Source: an uncultured Porphyromonadaceae bacterium
Lineage (GTDB): Bacteria; Bacteroidota; Bacteroidia; Bacteroidales; Muribaculaceae
Direction: 5' to 3'
DNA length: 64,000 nucleotides
NCBI GenBank assembly: GCA_947575235.1
Contig: CANPMT010000003.1
Span: 25,079 to 89,078, forward strand
Under the pieces are notes generated by a model that saw only the letters and a list, made by a program, of their open reading frames with translations, was not told the DNA's origin and did no database searches. The translations under genes and the position numbers were made by a program. Shown in pieces: positions 26,403-37,001 of the stretch (position 1 is the stretch's first letter; each line of letters opens with the position of its first letter).

Positions 26403-29400
26403 TTAGAACTTTCCTGTCACTTCAAGTTCAGTCATGGAATGAGCAGTGATGTAGAGGTATAACGTCGTGACGATTCGGGACGAGGCGATAATTTCTTCTT
26501 CCGAAGCATCCGGAGTAACATGACTCTCGTCGTTGCGCAGATTGCGCATGGTGTCGAGATAACCGTACATGCGCTGGTATTTCTTCCGTTCTTTGAACTT
26601 TAGAGATTTCAGTTCCTCAAATGCAAAGATACAATCAGCCAACGTGGGTGTTTTCTCCGGGTCGCGGTTATTTCTCAATTCCTTGCCATTGATCAGCCAA
26701 TAAAGTTTCTTCAGATAGGTCTCAAACTTGGTGAGGATGGTGTTGAAATGACGGCGACGGTCTACAATAGTCAGTTTCTTGTCGTTGAAGAGTCTGTTGA
26801 ATGAATCCGTCAGAAGATCATTTGCACCGTCAAGGGTTGGCAAAGATTTCGCCTGAAGTACTTTCACAAATACATCAATCACTTCGTTGAGCGGACGAAG
26901 GCCGGGGAAGTCGGCAAATTCATCGTTGAAGTTCATATATAAAGCCTTTCTGAAAGCTTCCGGATCGAATATCAACGGGGCATCACGGAAATGATCGTAG
27001 AGAGCAGCTGCCATCTGCGACATTATCTGACGGTATTTCTCACCATTATCGAACAGAGCTTTGAACGCCTCGGTCTGTTCTTCGTAGAGGGTGGTGGCCA
27101 CATCATCGAATACACCGGGGAACACAGCCTCCATGAATTGCTGCTTGCCGTTGTTGTTTGCCTTCTTCGAGAGTTTTTTCGCCTCCTTTGTATTGGTGAG
27201 ACGATTCACTATAGCCTCGACAATCACCCGGTCCGCCTCTGAGAAATCTCCTTTATAGAGAATGTTGATTTTGTCGATGATGTTTCCGAGCAGGTCTCGT
27301 TTCTTCTCCGGTTTTCCGCTACCGTTGCCAGATTCACCCTTTACGGTCTTGTTGCCTTCCAGTGTGATTGCCACAGTCTCGCCTTGCTTGAACTGCGAGT
27401 TTACAAGCATGATTTTCTTCGACAGGTCCGGTTTCTCATGCGGTGTCTTTGGCAGAAGTTTGTAGAGCGTATCTGCAAAGATATACGCCTTATACAGTGG
27501 ACGATCGAAAGTGCGGGCTATCTGCGCCATATAGGAATAGAACCTCACGAAGTTCTTTATCTTGGAGCGCAACTCAAAACGCTTCTCCTCCTCCAGCGCA
27601 TCAAACCGCGACATTATAGGCTTGAAGAAACCTGACAGCGCTGCCAAGGCATTCTTCTTGCCCCGATATTTCTTGTAAATCTCATAGAAAGCCTCTTCTT
27701 CTGTCTCGCTCCAGATATGATACTGTGCAATATCCTTGCGGAAGCGATAGACGTAGTTCACATCTACCGGTTCGACAAGGTCGGTACCTTTATAGAATGG
27801 CTCAAATGCCTTCTTGATTTCATCGGCTGTGTTGGAGAAGTCGAACACGAAAGTATCCTTCTTCAGTTTTTGCCAACGGTTTAGACGCGAGAGAGTCTGG
27901 ACCGCCTTTACGTTCTTTAACCGTTTGTCAACAAACATCGTGTGCAGTTTTGGCTCATCAAAACCGGTCTGATACTTGTCGGCTACAATCAGTACGTTAT
28001 AGAGGTCGCTCGCAAAATACAGAGGCAACCGCTCCTCGCTGATTCTCCGCTCGGGAGTGGAGTTGAGCTGCGACTCTGTGTAGGTGTCACCGCCGAATTC
28101 GAGTTTGCCTGAGAAGGCCACAAGCGGACGTATGTCATCATATCCGTTCTGCTTGCAATACTCCTTCATGGCAAGAAAATATCGCAGGGCGTGGGCACGA
28201 CTGGCGCAGACTATCATTGCCTTCGCCTCGCCGTCCATTCGTTGGAGTGTCACCTCGCGCATCTTCTCAACCATAATTTCAACCTTCTGGTCAATCACAT
28301 GCTGATGGTTGTCATGGTAAGCCTTTATGGCACGTGTAGCTGGAGTCTCTTCATAGTCGGGATTCTCGGCGATGTTCTTTGCTATCTCGTATGCTGTGCC
28401 AATCGGAGTGAAATTCTGCAACACATCCTTGATGAAGCCCTCCTCGATGGCCTGTTGCATCGAATAGATATGATATGGCTTATGCTTCATCTTGCCCGGC
28501 TTCTCCGGGTCGGGATAGGGAATGCCGAATGTCTGCAATGTCTTAGGTTTTGGGGTAGCGGTAAAGGCATAGAAGGAGATGTTGCCATGCTGTCCTTGCG
28601 TGAGCAGGTCTTCCATCAGCGCATCCTTCTCCTTCTCGAGTTGTTCCACCTCTTTGTCCTCGATTTCGGCGAGTTCGCGCAGAGCCTCGTCGGTATCGGC
28701 AAGGGCAGCTTTGGTTTTCTCTGCGTTCTTTCCGCTCTGACTGCTGTGAGCCTCATCGACAACCACAGCATAACGGCGCCCGCTCTGACTACCTACCTTA
28801 TCATAGATATATGGGAAACGATGCAGGGTGCAGATTACTATACGGGCATTACCGTCGCGGATTATGTCACCGAGTTTTGAAGACGGGTCGCCATCTTTTA
28901 TCACCTCGACTTGGCCGAGGCGATGGTCAAATCCGAGCACCGTGTTCTGCAACTGCTGGTTAAGAACACGGCGGTCGGTAATTACGAAGACTGTGTTGAA
29001 CACATCCTTTTGCTCCGCATCGTGGAGTGAGGCAAGGCGGTAAGTGAGCCATGCAATCGAATTACTCTTGCCAGAACCTGCCGAATGCTGGATGAGATAA
29101 TTGTGTCCGGCACCGTTGGCGGCGGTGTCGGCAGTCAATTTCTCAACCACATCGAGCTGATGGAAGCGAGGAAATATTATCTTGGTAGATTCCTCCTTTA
29201 CCTCCTTCTCCTTACCATGCTTGTTGACAACTATCTTGATTCTTTCCTCTTTCTGAACGGAGATATAACGTTGCAGGATAGAGAGAAGCGCGTCACGTTG
29301 AAGCACCTGCTTCCAGAAATAGCCTGTTACATATTCACTTTCCGGCACATCCGGGTTTCCTGCACCCCCTGTGTTTCCCGCGCCATTATTTCCCTGGTTG

Positions 29401-30056
29401 AAGGGAATAAAGAAGGTTTTATCCTTTTGCAGTTGTGTGGTCATGGCAACCTCATAGAGGTCAACCCCGAAATAGGCGAGTATACGGTTGTTGAAATGGA
29501 ACAGCAACTCGTTAGGTTCGCGATCCTCCATCCACTGTCGTTTGCTCTCCTCCACGCTTTGTCCGGTGAGCTGATTTTTAAGCTCAATTGCTATCACTGG
29601 AATACCGTTGAGCATCAGCACCATATCGATTGTATTGTGATGCTTTGAAGAATAAGAGAATTGCCTGATAATGTGCAAGCGATTTGCTCGGTATTTTCGC
29701 ATAAGGTCTTCGTTCAGTTCCGAAGCTGGAGCGAAATATGCTATGCGTAGCTTTTCCCCATGCAGGACATGATCGTCAAGACCGTTGCGTAAAACATAAA
29801 TCAGCCCATACCGTGCTATATCCTCCTGAAGGATTTTATATAGATGTTCAGACGCATTTTCCGTACCATAGATTTTCAGATATCTCGCCCACAATTTGGG
29901 TTGCGTTTCCGTAATAAAATCGCGAAGCACGGTCAGGTCAATGGCCGCGTCCTTATTATATGTGAACTGGAAGCCACGCTCATATCCACCCTCTTCAAGC
30001 AGCCAGCGTTCGATGTCATCCTCAAAGTCCTTCTCCTTCAGATTCTCCTTATCCAT
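26403..30056 (-). CDS. hsdR: Type I restriction endonuclease subunit R
   Basis: N-terminal nuclease motif DMVLMLNGIPVIAIELKNQLTGQ; helicase motifs QHSAGSGKSNSIAWL, VVVDEAHSSQSG, FTATPKPKTL, YQTGFDEPKLHTMFVDK. Confidence 0.96.
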   Translation of the reverse strand: MDKENLKEKDFEDDIERWLLEEGGYERGFQFTYNKDAAIDLTVLRDFITETQPKLWARYLKIYGTENASEHLYKILQEDIARYGLIYVLRNGLDDHVLHGEKLRIAYFAPASELNEDLMRKYRANRLHIIRQFSYSSKHHNTIDMVLMLNGIPVIAIELKNQLTGQSVEESKRQWMEDREPNELLFHFNNRILAYFGVDLYEVAMTTQLQKDKTFFIPFNQGNNGAGNTGGAGNPDVPESEYVTGYFWKQVLQRDALLSILQRYISVQKEERIKIVVNKHGKEKEVKEESTKIIFPRFHQLDVVEKLTADTAANGAGHNYLIQHSAGSGKSNSIAWLTYRLASLHDAEQKDVFNTVFVITDRRVLNQQLQNTVLGFDHRLGQVEVIKDGDPSSKLGDIIRDGNARIVICTLHRFPYIYDKVGSQSGRRYAVVVDEAHSSQSGKNAEKTKAALADTDEALRELAEIEDKEVEQLEKEKDALMEDLLTQGQHGNISFYAFTATPKPKTLQTFGIPYPDPEKPGKMKHKPYHIYSMQQAIEEGFIKDVLQNFTPIGTAYEIAKNIAENPDYEETPATRAIKAYHDNHQHVIDQKVEIMVEKMREVTLQRMDGEAKAMIVCASRAHALRYFLAMKEYCKQNGYDDIRPLVAFSGKLEFGGDTYTESQLNSTPERRISEERLPLYFASDLYNVLIVADKYQTGFDEPKLHTMFVDKRLKNVKAVQTLSRLNRWQKLKKDTFVFDFSNTADEIKKAFEPFYKGTDLVEPVDVNYVYRFRKDIAQYHIWSETEEEAFYEIYKKYRGKKNALAALSGFFKPIMSRFDALEEEKRFELRSKIKNFVRFYSYMAQIARTFDRPLYKAYIFADTLYKLLPKTPHEKPDLSKKIMLVNSQFKQGETVAITLEGNKTVKGESGNGSGKPEKKRDLLGNIIDKINILYKGDFSEADRVIVEAIVNRLTNTKEAKKLSKKANNNGKQQFMEAVFPGVFDDVATTLYEEQTEAFKALFDNGEKYRQIMSQMAAALYDHFRDAPLIFDPEAFRKALYMNFNDEFADFPGLRPLNEVIDVFVKVLQAKSLPTLDGANDLLTDSFNRLFNDKKLTIVDRRRHFNTILTKFETYLKKLYWLINGKELRNNRDPEKTPTLADCIFAFEELKSLKFKERKKYQRMYGYLDTMRNLRNDESHVTPDASEEEIIASSRIVTTLYLYITAHSMTELEVTGKF

Positions 30057-30062
30057 AACCTT

Positions 30063-31481
30063 TTATTTAATTGTGGTTTTACCGGTAACGGCTTCGAGTA
30101 TTAGGCTTTGACGATACTGCCTAAGCGTCTCAATCTTCTCTTGCGTTACTATTATCAATTCGTCAATCTCAGCACATTTCGCGTCAAGAAATGCCGCTAT
30201 CTCCTGCTGCTCTGAAAGAGGAGGAGTTGGCACAATGAAATTTTTAACGCAAGCCATATCTGCATATGGGAACGTAGTACCGATTGCGGTTTCCCGACAG
30301 AACTTACCCAAGATAAACATGTAGTAGAAAATGTATTGCTTATCTACTCGGTTGTCCAGCGATTTACGAATCTTTAGATTCGTAAATCGCTGATTCGCAA
30401 GCGAATCAGCAATTAGCATTGCGTGCTCTCCTATGGAGGCTGTGCATATCGCCAGAATGTAAGAACCGGCTTCAAACATGCCACCATTTTTTACGGCTTC
30501 GGGAGTGATGTATTGAATTGATTCGTTTAGTTTACGTCCGGATTTACGAATATCTTCCATTCTGTACCAAGGAATAGTTCCATTGGTCCAAAATGAAGTC
30601 TCAGATTTTGAAGGTGTATAACCATTTCTGAATTCAAAGAAATGTTGTACAGGTATTGCCTCCCAACCTAACGGGACATCTCCAATCCATTCGGAGCCGG
30701 AATAGCGAACCGGCGTGTCAGAATTGAGGCCGTGGGTTACGGCTTCTGTGATGACGGCTTGGCGGTAGGCTTCGAGGTCGGAAATCATCTGCTGCTCAAC
30801 TTCTATAAGTTCGTCAATCTCGCCACACTTACCGTCAAGCCATGTGGCTATCCGCTCCTGCTCTTCCAAAGGCGGTAAATAAAAGGATAGATTTAGAAAA
30901 AAATCAGAAGAAACGCGCGGCATTTTAGTGCCATAGACAGAGCTTACGACAATTTTAGTAAATCCGTCGGAAAGCAGTATATATTTCACATATGCGGGAT
31001 TGCAATTATTTTTGCAACGAAATACAAAAAAATCGCCCACCGCATTACCTTCAAATTCTGCCTGCCATACTTTCATCAAATATGGACGGAGTTTTCCATA
31101 TACAATATCATTTTTAGAAAACGCGGTGCCATTACCATCAAACTTAGAATTTGATGCAATGTATTTTCCAGTTCCCGACTCAATATTTTCTAAACCTATC
31201 TTTGTTAAAGAATCAGATGCCGTTGTATTCAAGGATAAAAAATCTTTGAATCTACATAGAATCCAATGTTCAGGTGTATCGCCGATCCAAGGGATGCCGC
31301 TGTCTTTGAGTTTTGCAGATTTCTCACTGCAATCCAACCCGTGACAATTTGTCACGGGTTCGCCGATTTGAACATGGGTACAACTTGTACCCATGTTCAA
31401 ATCCAAGTCGCTACAGTTTCTAACTATTCCAACGACCTTTTTCAAATGGTTACAATTTGTTACCGGTTGATTTTCCTTCAT
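30063..31481 (-). CDS. hsdS: Type I restriction specificity subunit S with palindrome-encoded N-terminal extension
   Basis: Two TRD halves each starting with SGIPWIGDTPEHW / SGSEWIGDVPLGW and ending in LPPLEEQERIATWLDGKCGEIDELI / TPPLSEQQEIAAFLDAKCAEIDELI. Confidence 0.95.
   Translation of the reverse strand: MKENQPVTNCNHLKKVVGIVRNCSDLDLNMGTSCTHVQIGEPVTNCHGLDCSEKSAKLKDSGIPWIGDTPEHWILCRFKDFLSLNTTASDSLTKIGLENIESGTGKYIASNSKFDGNGTAFSKNDIVYGKLRPYLMKVWQAEFEGNAVGDFFVFRCKNNCNPAYVKYILLSDGFTKIVVSSVYGTKMPRVSSDFFLNLSFYLPPLEEQERIATWLDGKCGEIDELIEVEQQMISDLEAYRQAVITEAVTHGLNSDTPVRYSGSEWIGDVPLGWEAIPVQHFFEFRNGYTPSKSETSFWTNGTIPWYRMEDIRKSGRKLNESIQYITPEAVKNGGMFEAGSYILAICTASIGEHAMLIADSLANQRFTNLKIRKSLDNRVDKQYIFYYMFILGKFCRETAIGTTFPYADMACVKNFIVPTPPLSEQQEIAAFLDAKCAEIDELIIVTQEKIETLRQYRQSLILEAVTGKTTIK
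30357..30392. repeat. Palindrome inside hsdS TRD2 (17-bp arms, 2-nt loop)
   Basis: cagcgatttacgaatct-tt-agattcgtaaatcgctg. Confidence 0.85.
30389..30410. repeat. Second palindrome abutting the first inside hsdS (10-bp arms, 2-nt loop)
   Basis: gctgattcgc-aa-gcgaatcagc. Confidence 0.8.
31336..31360. repeat. Odd-length palindrome in hsdS N-terminal coding region (12-bp arms, 1-nt centre)
   Basis: aacccgtgacaa-t-ttgtcacgggtt. Confidence 0.9.
31365..31403. repeat. Odd-length palindrome in hsdS N-terminal coding region (19-bp arms, 1-nt centre)
   Basis: gatttgaacatgggtacaa-c-ttgtacccatgttcaaatc. Confidence 0.93.
31448..31464. repeat. Imperfect palindrome, first unit of the HsdS N-terminal repeat
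   Basis: ggttacaa-t-ttgttacc (one mismatch), same acaa-N-ttgt core as the two neighbouring palindromes. Confidence 0.6.
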
Positions 31482-32572
31482 AACTTTTTCTCCTTCCCTT
31501 CAATCCGACAGACACTGTCTGTTGAATTCATTTTTTTGAGTCTGGCGCTTATTGAGGCGTTCAGAGCGTTTTCCAAGTCGTATGAAGCTACACCAAGGGG
31601 CTTGGCAATGTCACTCAGCGACCACTCCACTGTAGTCTTGTCTTTATCCCGACATATAAGTAACCCCACAGTCGGGTTGTCATCATCCCCTTTAAGTAAT
31701 TCATCAACAGCTTTCACATAAAAGTTGAGTTTGCCAGCATGTTCCGGTTGAAAGGATGTACGCTTCAATTCACACACCACAAAACTTTTAATCCTATAGT
31801 GATAAAAAATTAAATCGGGATAATATGATGTCCCATCGGGCATACGAAGTTCCATCTGACGACCGACGAATGCAAAGCCTTTGCCAAGTTCCAATAGAAA
31901 CCGCGTTATATCGTTCACCAAGGCATCTTCAAGATCCTTCTCTACATACTCCTCTGGAAGCTGAACAAAGTCAAAATAGTATTGGTCTTTAAGAATGGAG
32001 GTGGCTTTTTCAGCGAATTCAGTAGGTAACTTTTCGTTGAAGTTGGTTATCGCCTTTCCTTGCGATTTGTAAAGATTGGCCAAAAGCTTGTCTTTCAATG
32101 CAGGTCGGCTCCAATTGTTTTGAATTGTCGATTCAATATAAAATAGGGCCTCGTCAATAGAGATACATTTTGAGACAATATCAATATGGTGCCCCCAGGG
32201 AACTTTCCCGAAATCTACGGGCATCTCTAATTGGTCAACGACTCGTTGACCAATTTCTATGCCTTGATTATAAAATGAATACCATCTTGCTGTATACTTG
32301 ATATTGGTAACTGAAAACCCTGAGACATTAGGAAAGGAGGTTCTTAGATCAAGGCTAATTTGCTGCACCACCTTAGCTCCCCATTTTTGCTCTGCTTTCA
32401 TGCACACAATGTCTCTGCCCAATTCCCAATAAAATTGGAGCATCTCCGTGTTGACTCTTATCGCTGCTTTTGTCTGACTAGCATGATAGCGCAACTTGAC
32501 TTGCTCAATCCACGCATAATAGCCTGGGTCGATATTCAGTCTTGACTTGTTTACAAAACTTGGCTTTTCCAT
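31478..32572 (-). CDS. DUF1016/YhcG-family PDDEXK nuclease-domain protein encoded within the hsd operon
   Basis: N-terminal DUF1016_N pattern (YYAWIEQVKLRYHASQTKAAIRVNTEMLQFYWELGRDIV), FGKVPWGHHIDIVSKC, C-terminal nuclease-like region PDLIFYHYRIKSFVVCELKRTSFQPEHAGKLNFY. Confidence 0.93.
   Translation of the reverse strand: MEKPSFVNKSRLNIDPGYYAWIEQVKLRYHASQTKAAIRVNTEMLQFYWELGRDIVCMKAEQKWGAKVVQQISLDLRTSFPNVSGFSVTNIKYTARWYSFYNQGIEIGQRVVDQLEMPVDFGKVPWGHHIDIVSKCISIDEALFYIESTIQNNWSRPALKDKLLANLYKSQGKAITNFNEKLPTEFAEKATSILKDQYYFDFVQLPEEYVEKDLEDALVNDITRFLLELGKGFAFVGRQMELRMPDGTSYYPDLIFYHYRIKSFVVCELKRTSFQPEHAGKLNFYVKAVDELLKGDDDNPTVGLLICRDKDKTTVEWSLSDIAKPLGVASYDLENALNASISARLKKMNSTDSVCRIEGKEKKL
32229..32255. 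repeat. Odd-length palindrome in the DUF1016 gene (13-bp arms, 1-nt centre)
   Basis: aattggtcaacga-c-tcgttgaccaatt. Confidence 0.9.
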
Positions 32573-34575
32573 TACTTGCCTAAGATTTTGGACATCAACT
32601 CCTGTTCACGCTCACCGAGGGTGCGGAAATGCTCGAAGATCTCGGCGGCAGGGCGTGGTGCCGTGTAGCGGTAAAACTCACGGGTGAAGGGTATCTCGTA
32701 GCCGATTTTGGTTTCATCGTCGTTATACCAAAAATCGGGAGCGTATGGACGCACGTTGGCTTCGAGGAATTCATCGGGGTCGGTTTTCCACGGAATTATC
32801 TCACTGTCCTTTAGGTCGGGGTCTGGAGCAATACTGCTATCCATCTTAGTGGGCTTTACGCGGCACTCCATCTTCTGGTCGGCATCCTTGACACCGAAAT
32901 AGTTGCGCACCAACGCGACCTTACCCTGCGGTATCTTGATTTTTGCTTTCTCAAACTCATAGAAGAATGAGAAGTCGGGAAATGCGGGATTTCCGTTCGG
33001 AAAGATTGATTGCCAATAGTCGGCAAGTTTTTTAAGCAAGGGGCGGTCTGCGGACTTTACGCCCATTGCCTCGCATTTCTCCTCGGAATATTCAACTTTA
33101 GAGTATGTCAACCGCAGAGGACGGTAGGTAAAGACCTTGCGGTACTTGAAGTCGTCTGTGTCCTTGATGCGACTCTCTACTCGGGTGTCACCATCGGTGT
33201 ACTCCCAGTTGGCAAAATCCTTGTATGCCTTGACTATGAGGTCACGGCAACGGTCGGTAATCTCCACGCGCTTGTTGCCGAGGCTCTTGCGGCGTTTTTC
33301 AAAGCATTGACTCGCGTCAATCAGTTGAACTTTGCCACGACGGTCCTCCGGCTTCTCTTTTGAGATAACCCAGATGTATGTGGCTATTCCTGTGTTATAG
33401 AATAGATCGTTGGGAAGTTGAATGATAGCGTCGAGTCAGTCGTTTTCAAGAAGGAATCCACGGATGTTGCTTTCGCCACCTTCGGCATCGCCCTTGAATA
33501 GCGGTGAACCATTTTGGATAATAGCCATGCGACCGGAGTCTTTGAGCTTGGACACACCATTGAGTGTGAACAGCATCTGCCCGTCGCCAATGGCGGGTAG
33601 CCCAGCGGCAAAGCGGTCGCCTTCGCCGGTTTCTTTCTCAACCTGAGCTTTTGATGTCTTCCACTCGATGCCGAAGGGAGGATTGGAAATGATATAGTCA
33701 AACTCATACCCCTTGAACTGGTCGTTGCCGAGAGTGTCACCCTGACGCATATTTTCAGCATTGCCGCCCTTGATGAGGGTGTCGGCTTTTGCGATGGCAA
33801 ATGTCTGATTGTTCAGTTCCTGACCGTGTGAGGTGATGTCGGCATCCTCATCAAGCTGTAGCAGACGGTCAGAAAGACAACCGAGCATCTGCGACGTGCC
33901 CATAGCCATATCGTAAATGTCAACGCTAACACCCTCTTCAGCGAGACGCTGCTCATCGCCAGCAATGAGAATGTCGGCCATGACATTGATGATGTCTCGG
34001 GCGGTAAAGTGCGCACCGGCCTGTTCATCGTAGCTTTCGGAGAATTTACGGACAAGTTCCTCAAAGATGTATCCCATATCTACGGACGATATACGGTCGG
34101 TACCGAGATATGCCCTGTCACTGTTGAATTCCTTTATTATAAGGTAAAGCAGACCATTCTCCTCCAGTTTGCTTATTTCCTTGTCAAACTCAAAACGGCG
34201 GATTATATCAATCACATTTTCTGAAAAGTGCTGTAGGTAATCATCAAAATTGTCAGAAATATTATCCGGGTCGGCGAGAAGATTCTGGAAAGTGAACTTT
34301 GATGTATTGTAGAATTGCTGTTTAGATGCTTTAGAGAGAAAAGGAGACTTCAATACCGCATCCATATCGCCAAGTTCTTCATTACGTTTCCACACGGCTT
34401 GGCGTGTTGGTGCAAGTGTATCCTCAAAACGTTTGATGACACACATAGGCAATATGACATTGCCATATTCATGCGGCTTGTAGACACCTACAAGTTTATC
34501 AGCAATAGCCCAGATGAGAGCGGCTTTTTCCTGTCGGTTTATGGTGGTGAGCCTTTCGGCAGTTTGACTGTTCAT
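32572..34575 (-). pseudogene. hsdM: Type I RM DNA methyltransferase subunit M, interrupted by a single in-frame TGA at 33436-33438
   Basis: Upstream part (track ORF 33436..34611; likely start MNSQTAERL at 34575) includes IISNPPFGIEW and [14 protein letters not shown]. The same frame continues [65 protein letters not shown]... to the stop at 32572. Confidence 0.9.
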
Positions 34576-34607
34576 GACGATGATTTTACTACCTTGTATT
34601 GGATTGG

Positions 34608-37001
34608 TCACTCAAAGAAGCTGTCGGTCACTTCCTCCTCCTCGACTGTGCCGTTGCCTACGTATACCTCGCCGCCGCAAGCGGAGAAGTCGGCCGGGAA
34701 TTCAAACTTGGCGTCCTGCTTGTAGGGGAGGGAGCGGTCGGCGTAGACCTTCTGCATGTATATGCCATAGATAGGCAACGCTGCACGTGCTCCCTGGCCG
34801 AGAGCCATGGTGTTGAAGTGGATGTAGCGCTCCTCGCCACCTACCCAAACGCCTGTCACCAGGTCGGGGGTGAAGCCCATGAACCAGGAGTCTGAGTTGG
34901 AGTTGGTCGTACCGGTCTTGCCACCCATCTGGGCTGTGATACCGAAACGGCTGCGGAGACTCGCCGCCGTACCGCTGTCTACCACATTGAGCAGAATCGA
35001 GAGAATCTTGTAGTAGGCATCCTCGCTTGTCACCTCACTGCGGTGGGGCGTGGCCGAGTAGATGAGGTTACCCTGGTTATCCTCGATGCGGGTCACGAAT
35101 ACCGGGTCAACACGCATACCCTTGTTGGCGAAAGTGGTATAGGCCGACACCATCTCCTTGACGGGGACGTCAACCGTTCCCAAAGCGAGCGGTAGAGTGG
35201 CGTCGATATGGCCCGTGACACCGAACATTCTCATCTTGTTGGCAAGGTTTTTCGCTCCAAGTTCATTTACAAGACGGGCGGAAATCCAGTTGTTGGAGTT
35301 GGTGAGAGCCCAGCGTAGGTCTACCATCTCCCCGATACGGGCTGAGCCGGAGTTACGGGGCGACCAGTTGCCGAAGGTAGGCTGCGAGTTGAGGAACTGC
35401 GAGCAGGGGGTATAATCCTGTTCCATGGCCAGTGTGTAGAGGAAAGGCTTGGCCGTAGAACCGATCTGGCGCTTTCCGCGCGACACCATGTCATACTGGA
35501 AGAAGTTGAAGTCGGGACCGCCGACATAAGCCTTCACATAACCGTTGTGGGGGTCCATACTCATAAGACCGGTGCGCAGGATTGACTTCATGTAAAGCAG
35601 AGAGTCGTAAGGGGTCATGGTGACGGTCTTTGTGCCGGGACGGTATTTCCCGTTCTCCTTGACGTATGTGAAGATATCCATCTGGTAGGAATGATGGAAA
35701 GTCTTCTCGATCTCACTCTCCGGCACTCCGGCATTCTTGAGCACGCGCCATCTTTCGGTCTGCTTCATGGCGTTCTTGATGAGGTTCATCACTCCGGAAC
35801 GGCTGAGCTCCGAGGTATTGGTGGTGTATGGGCCTGTGGGCTGCCCTTTCTTCTCATTGAAGAAAGCGGGCTGGAGGGTGCCGCCGAGATGCTGGTTTAC
35901 AGCCTCTTCGGCATATTCCTGCATACGCACGTCGATAGCGGTGTAGATTTTGAGACCGTCAGTATAAATGTTGTAATACGATCCGTCCGGTTTAGGGTTC
36001 TTGAGAATCCAGCCATACATCGGGTTATCCTCCCACTGGGTGGAATCAGTGTTATACTGACCCATGGAGAGTATGTAGGCCATTTCCGACTTATACTTTG
36101 AACGGTCGGGGCGAACCGGTTTCTTTGCATTCATGAGCATACGGATCTCCTCGCGCAGGTAAGGGGCACCCCCTTCGCGGTGGTCAACCTTGTGATAGTC
36201 AAGGCCGAGGGGGAGCTGTTTGAGCGAATCGGCTTCCTCACGTGAGATTTTTCCCGCCTTCACCATCTGGTCGATCACCACATTTCGGCGGTCGCGTGTA
36301 CGTTCCGGGTGACGGAGGGGGTTGTAATAGCTCGGGTTCTTGAGCATGCCCACCAGCATGGCAGCCTCCTCAGCCTTAAGGTCGGCCGGCTGCTTGTTGA
36401 AATAGACATTGGCGGCAGTCTTTATGCCCACTGCGTTATTGAGGAAGTCGAAGCGGTTGAGATACATATTGATAATCTCCTGCTTGGTGTAGAAACGCTC
36501 GAGTTTGATGGCGATCATCCACTCTATAGGTTTCTGCATGGCACGTTTCAGCATATTGCTTGACGGGCGGGAATAGAGCTGTTTTGCAAGCTGCTGTGTG
36601 ATGGTAGAGCCACCACCCGACGACTTGTCGCCCATAAGGAGGGTCTTGACGCCGGTGCGGCCGAGTGCAATGAAGTCAATGCCGGAATGGCTCATGAAAC
36701 GTTCATCCTCGGTAGAGATGAGGGCGTCGATCACGTAAGGGGAGACAGTCTTATAGTCGGAATTGACACGATTGCCCGCTCCGGCGAAGTAACGGCCTAA
36801 TTCAGTGGTGCCGTCAGAGGCGATCACCACTGATGCGAGTTTATCGTGAGGGTCTTCCAGCTCCTCGATAGGGGGCATGTATCCGATTACACCATTGTAG
36901 ATAAGGAGGAGGAAAAGGGCAATTACTGCTCCCAGGCCCAGGAACGATATCCAGAGCCATTTCACTATGCTGCGGTTGCGGGCGAGTTTCTTATCGGTCA
37001 T
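34608..37001 (-). CDS. Penicillin-binding protein 1A (bifunctional transglycosylase/transpeptidase)
   Basis: EDERFMSHSGID; GGSTITQQLAKQLYSRPSS; KRQIGSTAKPFLYTLAME (SxxK), TNSNNWIS (SxN), GKTGTTNSNSDSWFMGF (KTG). Confidence 0.95.
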   Translation of the reverse strand: MTDKKLARNRSIVKWLWISFLGLGAVIALFLLLIYNGVIGYMPPIEELEDPHDKLASVVIASDGTTELGRYFAGAGNRVNSDYKTVSPYVIDALISTEDERFMSHSGIDFIALGRTGVKTLLMGDKSSGGGSTITQQLAKQLYSRPSSNMLKRAMQKPIEWMIAIKLERFYTKQEIINMYLNRFDFLNNAVGIKTAANVYFNKQPADLKAEEAAMLVGMLKNPSYYNPLRHPERTRDRRNVVIDQMVKAGKISREEADSLKQLPLGLDYHKVDHREGGAPYLREEIRMLMNAKKPVRPDRSKYKSEMAYILSMGQYNTDSTQWEDNPMYGWILKNPKPDGSYYNIYTDGLKIYTAIDVRMQEYAEEAVNQHLGGTLQPAFFNEKKGQPTGPYTTNTSELSRSGVMNLIKNAMKQTERWRVLKNAGVPESEIEKTFHHSYQMDIFTYVKENGKYRPGTKTVTMTPYDSLLYMKSILRTGLMSMDPHNGYVKAYVGGPDFNFFQYDMVSRGKRQIGSTAKPFLYTLAMEQDYTPCSQFLNSQPTFGNWSPRNSGSARIGEMVDLRWALTNSNNWISARLVNELGAKNLANKMRMFGVTGHIDATLPLALGTVDVPVKEMVSAYTTFANKGMRVDPVFVTRIEDNQGNLIYSATPHRSEVTSEDAYYKILSILLNVVDSGTAASLRSRFGITAQMGGKTGTTNSNSDSWFMGFTPDLVTGVWVGGEERYIHFNTMALGQGARAALPIYGIYMQKVYADRSLPYKQDAKFEFPADFSACGGEVYVGNGTVEEEEVTDSFFE

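Follow-up and report, generated by a model that had tools for sequence, protein, structure and literature searches.

Introduction

The hsdS gene of the locus studied here opens with a series of palindromes that lie in frame and would be translated as an N-terminal extension of HsdS. This raises the question of what these palindromes are and whether the peptide, the transcript or the DNA itself is under constraint. Among the known palindromic elements of bacteria, the RPEs of Rickettsia have a sequence that is common within a family and are dispersed among unrelated genes. REPs are extragenic short hairpin palindromes with a high copy number.

Palindromic DNA in coding genes has already been described, mainly in Rickettsia, in PARCEL proteins and in some mitochondria. 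RPEs comprise about 100-150 nt (PMC4316617), PARCEL elements are HMM-defined repeats of 25 residues (75 nt) located mostly in membrane-targeted ORFs (PMC2996958), and perfect inverted repeats of up to 284 bp lie within the coding genes of Nematomorpha mitochondria (PMC6649704). No report on palindromes in DUF1016, ORF6N or Bro-N genes was found in the open-access literature, and the search for a solved structure matching DUF1016 also gave no result.

Palindromic units at the DUF1016-hsdS junction

The window, i.e. the whole stretch of 64 kb of DNA that was analyzed, carries the genes and palindromes listed in Table 1. The first-pass annotation had described four units at the head of hsdS, two of them perfect and two degenerate, with centres 36, 33 and 39 nt apart. 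These units, their arm lengths and spacings as well as the peptide given for them were all recovered. For unit C, the number of paired positions is only a little higher than the roughly 3 expected by chance. The count of four was nevertheless incomplete, since unit E, located within the last codons of the upstream DUF1016/YhcG gene, and a further palindrome inside that gene had been overlooked. The array of five units straddles the DUF1016-hsdS junction.

Table 1. Genes and palindromic units of the locus (window coordinates)
Feature	Position	Strand	Description
hsdR	26403..30056	-	1217 aa
hsdS	30063..31481	-	472 aa, Methylase_S, N-terminal extension
Unit A	31336..31360	-	odd palindrome, single-base centre 31348, perfect arms of 12 nt; peptide PVTNCHG
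Unit B	31365..31403	-	odd palindrome, centre 31384, perfect arms of 19 nt; peptide DLNMGTSCTHVQI
Unit C	31405..31429	-	centre 31417, degenerate; 6/12 paired ungapped, hairpin only if an indel is allowed
Unit D	31444..31468	-	centre 31456, imperfect, 9/12 paired; peptide PVTNCNHL
DUF1016/YhcG	31478..32572	-	PD-(D/E)XK nuclease gene; overlap with hsdS is ATGA
Unit E	31502..31528	-	centre 31515, 10/12 paired; core CAGACANTGTCTG as in E. coli yhcG; 3' end of DUF1016
DUF1016-internal palindrome	32229..32255	-	AATTGGTCAACGAGTCGTTGACCAATT, centre 32242, arms of 13 nt; domain place common to the family
hsdM	32572..34611	-	in-frame TGA at 33436-33438, resulting in ORFs of 391 aa and 231 aa

Units A and D of hsdS have the core GTnACAAnTTGTnAC, which also occurs in genes of the ORF6N and Bro-N families; in unit B, the core is the shorter ACAANTTGT. 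Units A and B have ACAANTTGT in common and differ at six arm positions, all in a compensated way, as had been proposed for the arms.

To judge these palindromes against the coding constraint, the first 57 codons of hsdS were subjected to 20,000 synonymous recodings in which the peptide was kept. One arm of at least 12 nt arose in 32 of them, and an arm of 19 nt in none. Because two arms of at least 12 nt were never obtained, the palindromes at the head of hsdS are real and not due to chance. Besides the two in hsdS and the one at 32242 in DUF1016, the window contains no odd palindrome whose arms reach 11 nt. Folded as single-stranded DNA, positions 31330-31530 reach -44.4 kcal/mol (z = -8.2 versus shuffles) and form five hairpins, each with a 3-nt loop. 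The units are 25-39 nt long, with an odd, single-base centre and a self-complementarity of the arms beyond that imposed by the peptide.

The restriction locus and its orthologs

The HsdS protein starts with MKENQPVTNCNHLKKVVGIVRNCSDLDLNMGTSCTHVQIGEPVTNCHGLDCSEKSAKLKDSGIPWIG. Its reading frame is open through the array, and the ATG at 31481 has an SD-like AAGGAG upstream; the array codons are predicted to be translated as the N-terminus of HsdS. In a genome of the same genus (G100), whose HsdM is 90% identical in the C-terminal part, hsdS starts with ATGAAGGAAACAAAACTCAAAGACAGC. No DUF1016 gene is present there, and the non-coding stretch that separates hsdM from the ATG of hsdS contains two palindromes with a distance of 34 nt. 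In the nearest relative, the palindromes are located in the non-coding leader of hsdS. The hsdS gene of G097 starts with MEQKLKDS and is devoid of a palindrome, and the hsdM-hsdS gap of G555 contains two palindromes 54 nt apart. From this comparison of orthologs, the array is to be read, at the level of sequence, as having been inserted in frame between KLKDS and the region of the start codon; units of this type recur at the junction. The insertion into the head of hsdS assumed by the first-pass annotation agrees with this, as the orthologs of G100 and G097 begin directly at M-KETKLKDS and M-EQKLKDS. The same annotation had considered that translation might start downstream and the region be a mere leader. 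The relatives do begin at KLKDS, yet the window has no ATG between the array and KLKDS.

The in-frame TGA of hsdM in the window corresponds to a Trp codon in two relatives (L327 and L328). With hsdM interrupted in this way, the type I system of this genome may be inactive; alternatively, the TGA may be an assembly error.

A second hsdM-DUF1016-hsdS locus exists in the same genome (L351, contig C45), with one palindrome inside DUF1016 at 2071 and another at 2800, near the 3' end of DUF1016 and about 30 nt ahead of hsdS. A scan of genome contigs for the core in the vicinity of the GIPWIG motif of hsdS returned 3 matches, which were judged to be chance.

Distribution of the units

Only three matches to the hsdS core occur in the genome of the window, two of them in the array itself. 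In a broader search, the core GGTNACAANTTGTNACC was detected in 102 of 393 Bacteroidales genomes, as compared to only three matches of the reversed pattern in the same set, so that the core is clearly carried by other loci and genomes. Of the GGTNACAANTTGTNACC matches inspected, most belong to ORF6N or Bro-N genes, where they occupy a fixed position in the domain. DUF1016/YhcG genes harbor one to four tandem in-frame palindromes at a single place of DUF1016_N, mostly spaced by 36-54 nt (33-39 nt in hsdS), and 33 of 90 scanned DUF1016 genes showed no unit at a strict cut-off. Plasmid-borne DUF1016 homologs with units belong to Pseudomonadota, Cyanobacteriota, Fusobacteriota and Campylobacterota.

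As judged from sequence comparison, related units recur at fixed places of YhcG/DUF1016, ORF6N and Bro-N genes as well as in some of the hsdM-hsdS gaps, and the array is a member of this family. Two expectations of the first-pass annotation have to be given up here. The units are not mainly a feature of HsdS, which is a rare host next to the chief hosts DUF1016, ORF6N and Bro-N: among 397 genomes of the family, only the window genome and G100 were found to have a core palindrome immediately preceding the HsdS start motif. Nor are they mainly a feature of Bacteroidota, as DUF1016 carries them in several phyla including E. coli.

Further palindromes were noticed elsewhere. On another contig of the same genome (L004, contig C39), ORF6N-type genes at about 5797 and 8264 have N-terminal palindromes of the VTNC type, one of them with 21-nt arms in a gene remnant. 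Viral contigs (L080-L196) contain GGTNACAANTTGTNACC copies with paired arms between genes, in 45 co-directional or convergent gaps versus 1 divergent gap, which is a placement as terminators would have. In six viral loci (L101, L106, L113, L126, L128 and L131), in-frame palindromes reading GDKLSP or GDNLSP occur in genes resembling viral replication initiators, sometimes as two copies 39-57 nt apart; these are possibly origin iterons.

Level of constraint

The number of palindromes expected from the peptides was determined by a null in which the peptide was held fixed and codons were drawn at random. DUF1016 has 81 palindromic sites versus 5.8 expected (69 genes), ORF6N has 24 versus 1.3 (27 genes) and Bro-N 18 versus 1.4 (29 genes), that is, 123 palindromes in 125 genes of the three families versus about 8.5. 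An excess was also observed for plasmid-borne DUF1016 from several phyla (9 versus 0.9, 11 genes) and for E. coli yhcG (3 versus 0.3).

In a covariation test, positions were picked by an anchor and not by palindromy and compared with column shuffles that leave sequence relatedness in. With this relatedness included, DUF1016 arms form 8.4 of 12 pairs versus 5.0 +/- 0.24, and covariation of the ORF6N arms amounts to 251 versus 195 +/- 5. The ORF6N segment occurs, among other forms, as LRSQIVTS, LRFHFGTS, LKSQFATS and LVSQIVIP, and in each variant the complementary codons match. Units at the ORF6N site are read in two frames (LRSQIVTS and ELVTNCDR), and in L270 and L274 one DNA unit is read in two frames of a single gene. 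Because symmetry is lost with randomized codons, the arms covary and the same unit is read in two frames, these sequence data show that the constraint is on the self-complementarity of the DNA and neither on the peptide nor on the exact sequence.

The centres of the palindromes are odd in 82 cases and even in 7, and the position adjoining the centre pairs near the expectation from base composition, as for a 3-nt loop. Units of a single gene have different outer arms, each unit staying self-complementary. When units of the same gene are compared, 65 differences are compensated and 67, about as many, affect one side only; thus, symmetry decays too.

Turnover of units in E. coli yhcG

The yhcG gene of E. 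coli K-12 has three units, 39 nt apart. Strains of O145:H28 and O26:H11 have one unit each, the O145:H28 gene being shorter by exactly 78 nt, which equals two units, and a further E. coli lineage has two units with arms that are different but again complementary. The units of one array are a mix of identical, compensated and decayed positions. At the level of sequence, units are hence shown to be gained, lost or exchanged as blocks. In some of the strains among the E. coli yhcG matches H111-H116, the match ends at the last palindrome unit and the gene is annotated only as the N-terminal domain.

Discussion

Comparison with known elements

The first-pass annotation had likened the palindromes to RPEs, which holds in kind. 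In both cases palindromic DNA is found between genes as well as in frame within protein-coding sequences, and an in-frame insertion into a coding gene is apparent here from the open frame and from the G100 and G097 orthologs without an array between start and KLKDS. Size and dispersal set them apart. The units are much shorter than the length given for RPEs in PMC4316617, and they are tandem, with sequence-free arms, in few gene families at one place and with only three core matches in the genome. With PARCEL the units share tandem in-frame repeats and DNA dyad symmetry, but they occupy 11-16 codons and not 75 nt, and their hosts are DNA-binding, nuclease or restriction genes. The Nematomorpha case likewise has inverted repeats in coding genes but differs in being mitochondrial and in its size. 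Short hairpin palindromes are shared with REP/RAYT systems, whose extragenic location and many copies were not found. The YhcG/DUF1016 PD-(D/E)XK family (PMC1189080, PMC1913061) is host to the units and the neighbor of hsdS here; the available portions of these two papers do not mention palindromes.

Because the size and dispersal of RPEs and the period of PARCEL do not apply, the units are set apart from these known kinds and are best read as RPE-like modules whose location is fixed and whose sequence is free. As far as the open-access literature goes, what appears to be new is not coding palindromes as such but fixed-place units in DUF1016, ORF6N and Bro-N genes.

Origin and function of the units

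We favor the explanation, with a probability of about one half, that the extension of HsdS stems from hairpin-capable DNA palindromes arrayed in tandem across the DUF1016-hsdS junction, with the hsdS frame open through them by coincidence, and that the DNA structure is what is recognized. The DNA strands would fold out as cruciforms or single-stranded hairpins with a 3-nt loop, and the units would multiply and convert through replication slippage or recombination. The structure would be recognized by its shape, the most plausible readers being nucleases or DNA-binding proteins encoded at the same loci. This would lead to self-regulation or to spread of the units, and the peptide would be tolerated as a loop or leader. 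YhcG is a candidate for the reader, since its nuclease domain is predicted to resemble Holliday-junction resolvases (PMC1189080), although we regard this assignment as doubtful; it cannot be the sole reader because ORF6N and Bro-N are not nucleases. A wider proposal, which is tentative and which we consider rather improbable, is that YhcG, ORF6N and Bro-N genes carry sequence-free, symmetry-kept DNA hairpin units as a structured target of proteins of the same locus. Such a self-addressed module, present even in E. coli K-12, might be able to copy itself to a neighbor gene such as hsdS.

The units might instead be operators, i.e. dimer-binding sites that mediate autorepression of the ORF6N, Bro-N and DUF1016 genes by their products and also repression of hsdS, with specificity diverging between paralogs. 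Each of the three host families has a domain that binds or putatively binds DNA, the units of an array have largely similar cores (ACAANTTGT in hsdS, CAGACANTGTCTG in yhcG), and the hsdS core recurs in ORF6N and Bro-N units. One cognate dimer would, however, not need outer arms that differ within one gene while each remains self-complementary, and the viral intergenic GGTNACAANTTGTNACC copies lie behind genes and not at promoters, which renders this account unlikely. Against the explanation favored here, dimeric proteins with fast-changing specificity could also leave compensated palindromes. About equally improbable is a mutational by-product without function, in which template switching at the replication fork perfects imperfect palindromes in tolerant protein loops. 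The compensated block changes together with the mix of perfect and decayed units are the pattern of quasi-palindrome correction, and copy number does vary in E. coli; but the restriction to few gene families and one domain place in several phyla, as well as the strong bias to single-base centres, are left unexplained unless one ancient unit was ancestral.

The transcript and the peptide account for less. Sense-RNA hairpins could tune hsdS and the other genes by attenuation, stability or translation, and the array indeed folds strongly as RNA (-64.6 kcal/mol) and non-coding palindromes occur in hsdS leaders. This reading is disfavored, and we consider it very improbable, because mismatches at DUF1016 stem positions show no preference for G.U on the coding strand (G.U 9, A.C 20, other 38). 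A protein module of VTNC-type segments with merely incidental palindromes would fit the in-frame spacing and the recurrence of the VTNC peptide in Bro-N, ORF6N and HsdS, but it is hardly credible given that symmetry vanishes when codons are randomized at fixed peptide and that one DNA unit can be read in more than one frame.

Constraint on DNA structure, the explanation favored here, bears on protein analysis as well. Residues such as S/V, F/G and T/R covary through DNA complementarity and not through protein contacts, which could mislead covariation-based approaches. In three phage- or restriction-linked families, a palindrome is retained at a constant position of the domain, for DUF1016 across several phyla. 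The units also offer a handle on YhcG, a common nuclease family, and E. coli K-12 is directly tractable for a test.
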